From an uncultured Clostridia bacterium (GTDB lineage: Bacteria > Bacillota > Clostridia > TANB77 > CAG-508), in assembly GCA_944390295.1 (NCBI GenBank), contig CALXPV010000003.1, positions 1-44,644 of the forward strand: 44,644 bases of DNA, read 5' to 3'. The notes beneath the pieces are model-generated. The model did not search any database and was not told the DNA's origin. It was given only the letters and a program-made list of their open reading frames with translations. Made by a program: the position numbers and the translations under genes. This document shows, one piece after another, positions 37,920 to 44,554 of the stretch. The stretch's first letter is position 1, and the number at the start of each line of letters is the position of its first letter.

Positions 37920-37962
37920 AAAAGCGTATTTAAAAGATTTAATCTTTAGATACGCTTTTTTG
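37920..37962 (+). terminator. Terminator of the wall-polymer operon
   Basis: An 18-bp stem with one bulge (core AAAGCGTAT with ATACGCTTT), loop about two bases, followed by six T. Its T tract is also the first arm of the next hairpin, which begins at 37957. Confidence 0.8.
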
Positions 37963-38130
37963 TGGTATAGGAAAAATTACTTTTTCCTATACCACAAAAA
38001 TAACATTGCACAGAAAAATTGCATAGCAATTTTTCGCGTCTACAAATCTTTACGCTTCTTCGAGAACTTAAATATAAATAGTTAAATAAAAAAGTAGAGA
38101 AAAGTTCTCGCGAAGCGAGATTTGTTCTAT
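37957..38130 (+). repeat. Structured repeat, copy A (three-stem element)
   Basis: The 345 bases between tagH and the next gene hold this element. Stem 1 is a perfect 20-bp hairpin (37957-37976 with 37981-38000, loop TTAC), core TATAGGAAA / TTTCCTATA. Linker TAACATTGCACA (38001-38012). Stem 2 is GAAAAATTGC / GCAATTTTTC (38013-38022, 38026-38035). Stem 3 is long-range: ACAAATC (38042-38048) with GATTTGT (38119-38125), inside it GCTTC with GAAGC (38054-38058, 38112-38116), and CGAGAACTT with AAGTTCTCG (38061-38069, 38102-38110). It ends TTTGTTCTAT. A similar element with different stem sequences lies at 44405-44554. Confidence 0.75.
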
Positions 38131-42181: not shown

Positions 42182-44404
42182 TTGGAATTAGAGGGACAAT
42201 TAACAGAAATAATATATCAAAATGAAGCAAATAGTTATTTAATTGGAATATTAGAAAATGAAGAAGATACTATAACAGTAGTAGGATATATGCCTTTTGT
42301 GGTAGAAGGAGATTATATAAAAGTAATAGGAAATTTTGTTGTACATAGAGAATACGGAAAACAATTTAAAGTAGAAACTTTCGAAAAGGTAATGCCAAAA
42401 ACGCTAGAATCTTTAGAAAGATATTTGGCAAATGGAACTATAAAAGGAATAGGACCTGCAACTGCTAAAAAGATAGTAAAAACCTTTGGTGAAGATACAA
42501 TTCATGTATTTAAATTTGAGCCAGAAAAATTAACTGTAATAAAAGGAATATCAAAAGAAAAAGCAAAAGAAATGGCAGAAAGTTTTGTAGAAAACTGGGA
42601 TCTATGGCAAATAGTAGGCTATTTAGAAAACTTTGGAATAGGACCAGCTAATGCTAAAAATGTATATAAAAAATTAGGTTCACAAACAATAGATGAAATA
42701 GAAGAAAATCCGTATATATTAATAGATTTAGTAAAAGGTGTAGATTTTACTAAGATAGATGATTATGCACTAAAAAATGGGTTTGATATTAACAATTATA
42801 AAAGAATTAAATGTGGAATTAAGTATAGTTTAATTAAAATTACATATAATGGTCATTGTTGTACTTTAGAAAATAATTTAATTAAATATGTAAAAGACTT
42901 ACTAAAAGCAGATGAAGATGATATAGAACATTGCTTAATTGATTTAAGTGTAAAAGATGAAATCGTAATAGAAAAAAGAGAAGATGAAAATTGGGTTTAT
43001 GACAAAGAAATGTATGATGCAGAAGCAAATATTGCAAGTAAATTAATATTGTTAGATTCTGCAAAAAACATAAAACATATACCACATTTTGATGATGAAT
43101 TAAAGAAAATAGAAAAAAGTAGTAATATTAGTTTATCTAAAAAACAAAAAGAAGCGATAAAGTCTATTAATACTAATAATGTAGTAATAATAACAGGTGG
43201 TCCGGGAACAGGAAAGACAACAATTATAAAAAATGTTATAGATATTTATAAATCATATGGTAAAAAAGTAGTACTTTGTGCACCAACAGGACGAGCTGCT
43301 AAAAGAATGACAGAACTTACAGGAGAAGAGGCTAAAACACTACATAGGCTATTAGAAATAGGAAAAATAGAAAAAGATAATGAATTTACAATTATGAATT
43401 ATGAAGTTGCACCAATAGATGCAGATGTAATAATTGTAGATGAAGCATCAATGGTAGATATTTATTTAATGAATTACTTACTAAATGGAATATATCAAGG
43501 AACAAAATTAATTTTAGTAGGAGATACAGACCAATTACCTTCAGTAGGTCCAGGAAGTGTTTTGAAAGATATAATAAATTCTGAAAAGATTAAGACAATA
43601 TTTTTAGACGAAATATTTAGACAAGCAGCAGAAAGCAAAATAATAGTTAATTCACATAGAGTAAATGAAGGAGAATATTTTTTAACCAAAGAAGAGGAAG
43701 AAGGATTAAAGGATGATTTCTTCTATATAAAAGAAAAAAGCCAAGAAATAATGCTAGAACAAATAGTTTCTTTAAGTAAAGGTAGATTAAAAAATTTTGG
43801 GAATTACGATTTTTTCGAAAATATACAAATTCTTTCTCCAACTAAAAAAGGAATGTTAGGAACTAAAGAATTAAATAAAAAACTTCAAGAAGAATTGAAT
43901 CCAGAAGATGACATAAAAAAAGAGAAAAAGATTGGAGAAGTTATTTTTAGAGAAGGCGACAGAGTTATGCAAGTAAAAAACAACTATGACATCTATTGGG
44001 AGAAAGGTAACTCTTTAAGCTTAAAATATGAAAATGGAACAGGAATTTTTAATGGGGAACTTGGTAGAATTGAAAAAATTGATTTTATAAATAAACAAAT
44101 AAAAATATTATTTGATGATGAAAAAGAAGCTTGGTATGAATTTACTGATATGGATCAAATAGAGCATGCATATGCAATAACAATACATAAAGCACAAGGT
44201 AGTGAATTTGATGTTGTAATAATGGTTGCAAGTGGTTCTTCTTCAATGCTTCTTACAAGGAATTTATTATACACAGGTTTAACAAGAGCAAAAAAATTAT
44301 TAATATTAATAGGAAATGATAATGTAGTAAAATTTATGATAAAAAATGCGGATACCAAAATAAGAAATACAGGGTTAGAATATAAATTAAAAATGATTTC
44401 ATAA
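42182..44404 (+). CDS. recD2: RecD2-type ATP-dependent DNA helicase
   Basis: 740 residues, the typical RecD2 length. It unwinds DNA 5' to 3', and family members act in repair independently of RecBC. The N-terminal region (about 1-300) has the helix-hairpin-helix repeats GTIKGIGPATAKKIV and GIGPANAKNVYKKLG. The helicase core has Walker A GGPGTGKTT at 339-347, VIIVDEASMVD (motif II), LVGDTDQLPSVGPGSVL (motif III) and, near the end, HAYAITIHKAQGSEFD with YTGLTRAKK. It starts with TTG at 42182, eight bases after GAGG; the next ATG is deep inside the protein. Repeat copy B begins on the base after its stop. Confidence 0.93.
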   Translation: MELEGQLTEIIYQNEANSYLIGILENEEDTITVVGYMPFVVEGDYIKVIGNFVVHREYGKQFKVETFEKVMPKTLESLERYLANGTIKGIGPATAKKIVKTFGEDTIHVFKFEPEKLTVIKGISKEKAKEMAESFVENWDLWQIVGYLENFGIGPANAKNVYKKLGSQTIDEIEENPYILIDLVKGVDFTKIDDYALKNGFDINNYKRIKCGIKYSLIKITYNGHCCTLENNLIKYVKDLLKADEDDIEHCLIDLSVKDEIVIEKREDENWVYDKEMYDAEANIASKLILLDSAKNIKHIPHFDDELKKIEKSSNISLSKKQKEAIKSINTNNVVIITGGPGTGKTTIIKNVIDIYKSYGKKVVLCAPTGRAAKRMTELTGEEAKTLHRLLEIGKIEKDNEFTIMNYEVAPIDADVIIVDEASMVDIYLMNYLLNGIYQGTKLILVGDTDQLPSVGPGSVLKDIINSEKIKTIFLDEIFRQAAESKIIVNSHRVNEGEYFLTKEEEEGLKDDFFYIKEKSQEIMLEQIVSLSKGRLKNFGNYDFFENIQILSPTKKGMLGTKELNKKLQEELNPEDDIKKEKKIGEVIFREGDRVMQVKNNYDIYWEKGNSLSLKYENGTGIFNGELGRIEKIDFINKQIKILFDDEKEAWYEFTDMDQIEHAYAITIHKAQGSEFDVVIMVASGSSSMLLTRNLLYTGLTRAKKLLILIGNDNVVKFMIKNADTKIRNTGLEYKLKMIS

Positions 44405-44554
44405 TTTTTATTGTATAGGAAAGTTATACTTTCCTATACAATAAAAATAGCATTTCACACAAAATTGCAAAGCAATTTTGGCGAGCGAACAAAGACGCGG
44501 GCGATGAAAAATTTAAAAATAGCAGAGAGTTAAAAGAGCCCGCTTTTGTTCTAT
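44405..44554 (+). repeat. Structured repeat, copy B (three-stem element)
   Basis: Begins on the base after the recD2 stop. Stem 1 is a perfect 20-bp hairpin (44405-44424 with 44428-44447, loop TAT), core TATAGGAAA / TTTCCTATA. Linker TAGCATTTCACA (44448-44459). Stem 2 is CAAAATTGC / GCAATTTTG (44460-44468, 44472-44480), loop AAA. Stem 3: GAACAAA (44487-44493) with TTTGTTC (44545-44551) and GCGGGC (44497-44502) with GCCCGC (44538-44543). It ends TTTGTTCTAT like copy A. Bases 44555-44644 hold no gene I can support. Confidence 0.75.

Follow-up and report, generated by a model that had tools for sequence, protein, structure and literature searches.

A family of short, protein-less and probably mobile elements with three covarying hairpins behind intrinsic terminators of uncultured gut Clostridia

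We describe here a family of repeats, about 130-180 bp long, that are probably non-autonomous mobile elements without a protein of their own, spreading through uncultured gut Clostridia by inserting directly behind intrinsic terminators, at the T tract and in one orientation, with a mover that is probably none of the evident Y1 transposases or reverse transcriptases of the carriers. The repeats are multicopy and patchily distributed, have empty sites in related genomes, lie behind terminators and share a conserved three-hairpin structure and conserved ends. Judged from these comparisons between species the family behaves as a mobile one. Two complete copies, A and B, lie in the window, that is, the whole stretch of 44,644 nucleotides from an uncultured Clostridia bacterium that was analysed (Table 1). 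They belong to one family but to different subtypes, A to subtype I and B to subtype II. Both are found where an earlier note on this DNA had placed them and fold as it described, copy A at -60.4 kcal/mol (z -9.9; none of 200 shuffles equally stable). Copy B, with the same arrangement, reaches -51.6 kcal/mol (z -8.8). The note was also right about the linker, the closing TTTGTTC and the AATTGC/GCAATT hairpin.

The repeat is, however, not the two-copy one that the note had seen. A BLAST search of its own genome with copy A returned twelve other copies at 83-97% identity together with many fragments; eleven of the twelve are full or near full length, and one is without hairpin 1. The exact pattern ATAGGAAA...TTTCCTAT occurs 22 times in this genome and its reversed control pattern not at all, and a covariance model built from 27 copies (R1) gives about 27 matches. 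When R1 was run over related genomes, a kind of search that the note had proposed, carriers made up 30 of 98 genomes of the family (in 23 of 39 genera) and 80 of the 287 genomes sampled in the order; all but one of these 80 belong to that same family. Identity to copy A falls as low as about 75% in the relatives. Presence is patchy across sister species and some genomes show bursts of copies: in one genus (g11) G091 has 28 and G023, G069 and G111 have none, and in another (g9) G067 has 15 and G021 and G090 have none. Many shortened copies were found. The element was not found in phages, plasmids or viral contigs, one of these scans having used the exact pattern. Rfam 15 placed no family on it at gathering or relaxed thresholds, its only matches being to T-boxes and tRNAs in the neighbourhood, and no description of the family was found in the literature searched, in which few subscription journals were covered.

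Related hairpins occur in other settings. A genome from another family of the order (G025) holds, at loci L176-L190, about 20 copies of a TTTTTTGTTGTATAGGAAAAATC hairpin, related to hairpin 1, that is followed by a different and G+C-richer body; these copies, too, adjoin terminators. At contig ends of the own genome (L290, positions 845-1136; L293; L295) 105-bp units of a related subtype, which have the same TATAGGAAAAATC hairpin, stand in tandem arrays, and these arrays break the assembly.

Table 1. Features of copies A and B and of the terminator in front of copy A (positions in the window).
Feature	Position	Strand	Details
Intrinsic terminator of the upstream ABC-transporter operon	37923-37961	+	12-bp stem 37923-37934/37945-37956; T tract 37956-37961; hairpin found by script
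Copy A, complete element, subtype I	37957-38129	+	R1 match, 209.2 bits; full-length copies 83-97% identical elsewhere in the genome
Copy A, hairpin 1 (H1)	37957-38000	+	T tract + GTGG + TATAGGAAAAA; perfect 20 bp, 37957-37976 with 37981-38000
Copy A, linker	38001-38012	+	Carries the conserved unpaired motif TTGCACAG
Copy A, hairpin 2 (H2)	38013-38035	+	GAAAAATTGC-ATA-GCAATTTTTC; 10 bp
Copy A, stem 3	38042-38125	+	ACAAATCT...CGCTTC...GAGAACTT paired to AAGTTCTC...GAAGCG AGATTTGT; loop ~32 nt
Copy A, right end	38121-38129	+	TTTGTTCTA; conserved right boundary TTTGTYCT
Copy B, complete element, subtype II	44406-44553	+	R1 match, 76.3 bits
Copy B, hairpin 1	44406-44446	+	19 bp
Copy B, hairpin 2	44460-44480	+	AAAATTGC/GCAATTTT
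Copy B, stem 3	44487-44551	+	GAACAAA...CGGGC paired to GCCCG...TTTGTTC

The paired changes that the earlier note had noticed in the stems of copies A and B are seen in many more copies as well. We used two alignments, one of 27 copies built without the structure (A2) and one of 97 model-fitted matches (A3). In A2, 93.6% of cells pair, both sides change at 13 of 53 pairs, and covariation scores 0.120, where shuffled alignments score 0.066 and none of 500 shuffles reaches the observed value. The corresponding values in A3 are 95.6%, 48 of 53 pairs, and 0.311 against 0.088, and pairing drops to 51% or less when the partners are slid. Having been fitted to the structure, A3 favours it; A2, which is independent of the structure, agrees with it. 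The inner part of stem 3 differs by lineage (GAGAACTT, AGAGCTT or AGACCTT) and its complement is present each time, and the unpaired motifs TTGCACA and GCG are conserved. In A3 the loops of H1 and H2 were also found in both orientations (TTAC/GTAA and TAT/ATA), which is a mark of template switching in palindromes. As template switching can keep the arms complementary without selection, the covariation of H1 is not pure evidence of selection; stem 3 is the better evidence for structure because of its long loop. Overall, the three-hairpin structure is strongly supported.

The key feature, which the earlier note missed, is the terminator that adjoins copy A. This terminator, belonging to the upstream operon, is the insertion target of the copy; hairpin 1 takes this terminator's T tract as its 5' end and pairs it with its own 3' foot, CACAAAAA. 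Hairpin 1 starts inside a T tract in nearly all copies. A clean hairpin scoring at least 8 stands directly before the T tract in 49 of 71 copies, compared to 5.8% of 2,922 control T tracts (tracts of at least five, taken from the window and from nine long loci); at a score of 7 the figures are 56 of 71 and 10%. These copies include a few orthologues and so fall short of full independence. The mean fold of the 40 nt upstream is -9.8 kcal/mol versus -4.0 for the 40 nt downstream. A clear terminator is thus in front of some 70-80% of copies and none is clear in about 20-30%, copy B among them, and the upstream gene lies on the strand of the element at 54 of 63 callable sites. Hairpin 1 does not itself look like an intrinsic terminator, AAAAA following it in place of a T tract; the note was right that neither copy is a plain terminator, the one in front of copy A being a separate hairpin.

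Empty sites, which the note had proposed to look for, were indeed found. In sister genomes the terminator is present without the element opposite L022 (L271-L273), L020 (L280), L024 (L283) and L035 (L281), and the terminator must therefore predate the element; the exact empty site opposite L035 shows no duplication. One and the same terminator can carry different subtypes, type I in L022 and L070 and type II in L274. Elements also stand between T-box terminators and their genes, whether for aminoacyl-tRNA synthetases or others. This is so at L066 and L287, the latter before a glycyl-tRNA synthetase-like gene, where Rfam finds the T-box at 99.9 and 93.3 bits, and at L252 (isoleucyl) and L345 (aspartyl), where the leader was recognised by eye from its motif GGTGG.ACCGCG. 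At L306 the element comes after a tRNA pair. Copies in T-box leaders and after tRNAs imply that what is targeted is the terminator rather than an operon's end. The earlier note's reading as a 3'-UTR RNA behind an operon was therefore too narrow: it is terminators in general that precede the element, including those in 5' leaders.

Copy B departs from this pattern: it starts 1-2 bases beyond the stop codon that closes a recD2-like gene (42182-44404), where there is a short T run and no terminator. In sister species this gene runs straight on to a comFC-like gene, the junction being empty in L080-L084 and L146. It holds a third subtype in L078, subtype I in L086 and subtype II in copy B. The junction, filled in three lineages with three subtypes, is either a hot spot of insertion or a place where one subtype is exchanged for another.

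At the left end conservation stops at the T tract (TTTTTTRTNN.ATAGGAA) and at the right end the consensus is TTTGTYCT. L018 and L020 have the same AATAAA foot though their T tracts differ (TTTATT versus TTTTTT). A constant foot on differing tracts puts the left boundary between the T tract and GTGG, and it follows from this comparison that the T tract belongs to the target site and the A tract is carried along by the element. In the tandem units of L284 (143 bp) the right end, TTTTGTT, is joined directly to hairpin 1. The check for target-site duplications that the earlier note had called for gave no signal, the mean shared word being 4.14 versus 4.09 +/- 0.10 after shuffling.

The note's broader idea of a REP/MITE-like mobile repeat agrees with the copy number, patchy spread, empty sites, covarying structure and lack of an Rfam family, whereas the TnpA-REP/IS200 type of mover it named is not supported. 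That the element derives from a resident IS200/IS605 element as its MITE, or is a REP or REPIN moved by a resident RAYT (a Y1 HUH transposase), is in our view unlikely. It shares with IS200/IS605 ends, such as those of IS608, the hairpins, the lack of duplication, insertion on the 3' side of a short, fixed target similar to its right end (a T tract against TTTGTT) and guide-like complements beside the hairpins; IS608 chooses its target by pairing, and added pairing next to its left hairpin was designed to raise specificity (PMC5934647). The own genome, moreover, has two RAYT-like genes. However, Y1_Tnp had no match in the carriers G042 (27 copies, 97% complete), G091 (28 copies, 98%) and G086 (14 copies, 99%), nor in G097, G009, G058, G073 and G075, all of them incomplete metagenome assemblies, which can lose mobile elements. 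Y1 is as common in non-carriers as in carriers. Missing from eight carriers and not associated with the element, the Y1 transposase was rejected as its mover. Unlike an IS200/IS605 derivative, the element has no linked Y1 gene, its guide-like A tract is placed 3' to the foot of the hairpin, and its ends are not homologous to those of an autonomous copy: the 20 loci with Y1 genes, IS200-like ones included, showed unrelated hairpins or no linked element ends (the transposase ORF was recovered at 2 of 10, so motif positions were used). Nor was a longer autonomous copy found among 20 loci with shortened matches, whose translated neighbours were all housekeeping genes. The two RAYT-like genes (L049:1350-2117 on contig C12 and L050:657-1433 on C11; NF047646 matches below cut-off) are flanked by inverted GGGACGGTCC/GGACCGTCC palindromes and not by the TATAGGAAA hairpins of H1. 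They probably constitute a Clostridia RAYT-REP system separate from the element.

Less probable still is a SINE-like element that moves as RNA and is reverse-transcribed, for example mobilised in trans by the protein of a group IIC intron. Group IIC introns insert directly after intrinsic terminators (PMC4424553), so that target logic and orientation are alike, and the conserved, covarying fold is RNA-like. Yet at about 175 nt the element has no ribozyme domains or reverse transcriptase; domain V, group II boundary sequences and an Rfam ribozyme match were not seen, and RVT_1 had no match in seven carriers (G000, G005, G009, G011, G016, G020 and G025). As with Y1, reverse transcriptase was rejected as the mover, being missing from these seven and not associated with the element.

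We give the same low probability to a structured RNA useful to the host at transcript 3' ends, be it a stabiliser, a processing site or a regulator, that was amplified for its function. Such an RNA would account for the strong covariation, the conserved unpaired TTGCACA and GCG, the position mostly downstream of same-strand genes and the filling of the recD2-comFC junction in three lineages. It sits badly with a presence that is patchy, and copy numbers that jump, from one sister species to the next, with different subtypes at the same site, with the many shortened copies and with insertions in the T-box leaders that precede essential genes. That a DDE transposase moves the element as a classical MITE is very improbable: size, lack of coding capacity and intergenic site fit that class, but there is neither a duplication signal nor, at the empty site opposite L035, a duplication, and the ends T...TATAGG and TTTGTTC are not mutual inverted repeats. 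An integron attC site is presumably out of place here as well, the ends not fitting attC core sites.

What remains is a probable terminator-inserting mobile element. Y1 is missing from eight carriers and reverse transcriptase from seven, so its mover would be some other enzyme or one that the assemblies have lost. Hairpin ends, a target like the right end, complements beside the hairpins and no duplication form a pattern that matches single-strand transposition. We infer that the element may move as a single strand folded into its own hairpins. The T tract of the target (TTTTTTRTT) would be held by pairing to the A tract at the 3' foot of H1 and the right end, TTTGTTC, by pairing to GAACAAA at the foot of stem 3, and an enzyme acting in trans would cut both ends, between the T tract and GNNGTATAGG and at TTTGTTC. 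In this model the element would run from the G after the T tract to TTTGTTCT and join without duplication. The enzyme may be other than the evident Y1 or reverse transcriptase of the carriers, or may be encoded by a mobile replicon that the assemblies do not contain. The mechanism draws on an analogy with IS608, whose enzyme family was not found in several high-copy genomes; in IS608 base pairs between element and target decide where it inserts, and further pairs placed at the left hairpin's 3' base have been engineered for specificity (PMC5934647). The A tract of H1 occupies this same place. We tentatively suggest that the element finds terminators by its own hairpin and A tract, and that the enzyme is of a class new to hairpin-ended elements, neither Y1 nor reverse transcriptase, and possibly coupled to termination.

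For REP/REPIN, for IS200-type MITEs and for classical MITEs alike, at least one of the defining features tested is lacking in the element. REP and REPIN sequences are short, palindromic, intergenic and multicopy, and have been proposed to be non-autonomous DNA elements (PMC3116915, PMC8266576). The element shares these traits, but it spans ~150-175 nt with three covarying hairpins compared to a REP palindrome of 20-40 nt, lies behind terminators, shows no GTAG/CGTC tag and has carriers without RAYT. bcr1, EFAR, RUP and NEMIS are bacterial MITE-type repeats of 70-300 bp, non-coding, intergenic and often transcribed (PMC3733652). Size range, lack of coding and intergenic position are common to both, whereas the element has no terminal inverted repeats or target duplication and targets terminators. 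By description rather than by sequence comparison, bcr1 and EFAR are similar to it in length.

Terminators are a safe harbour for insertions, and to our knowledge few mobile elements target them. If a small structured element inserts there, even within T-box leaders of aminoacyl-tRNA synthetase genes, it would show a strategy otherwise described for group IIC introns, and it would offer a compact substrate for finding the mover by co-occurrence or biochemistry. It also calls for caution, since 3'-end RNAs that structure searches bring up in these gut bacteria may be mobile repeats.
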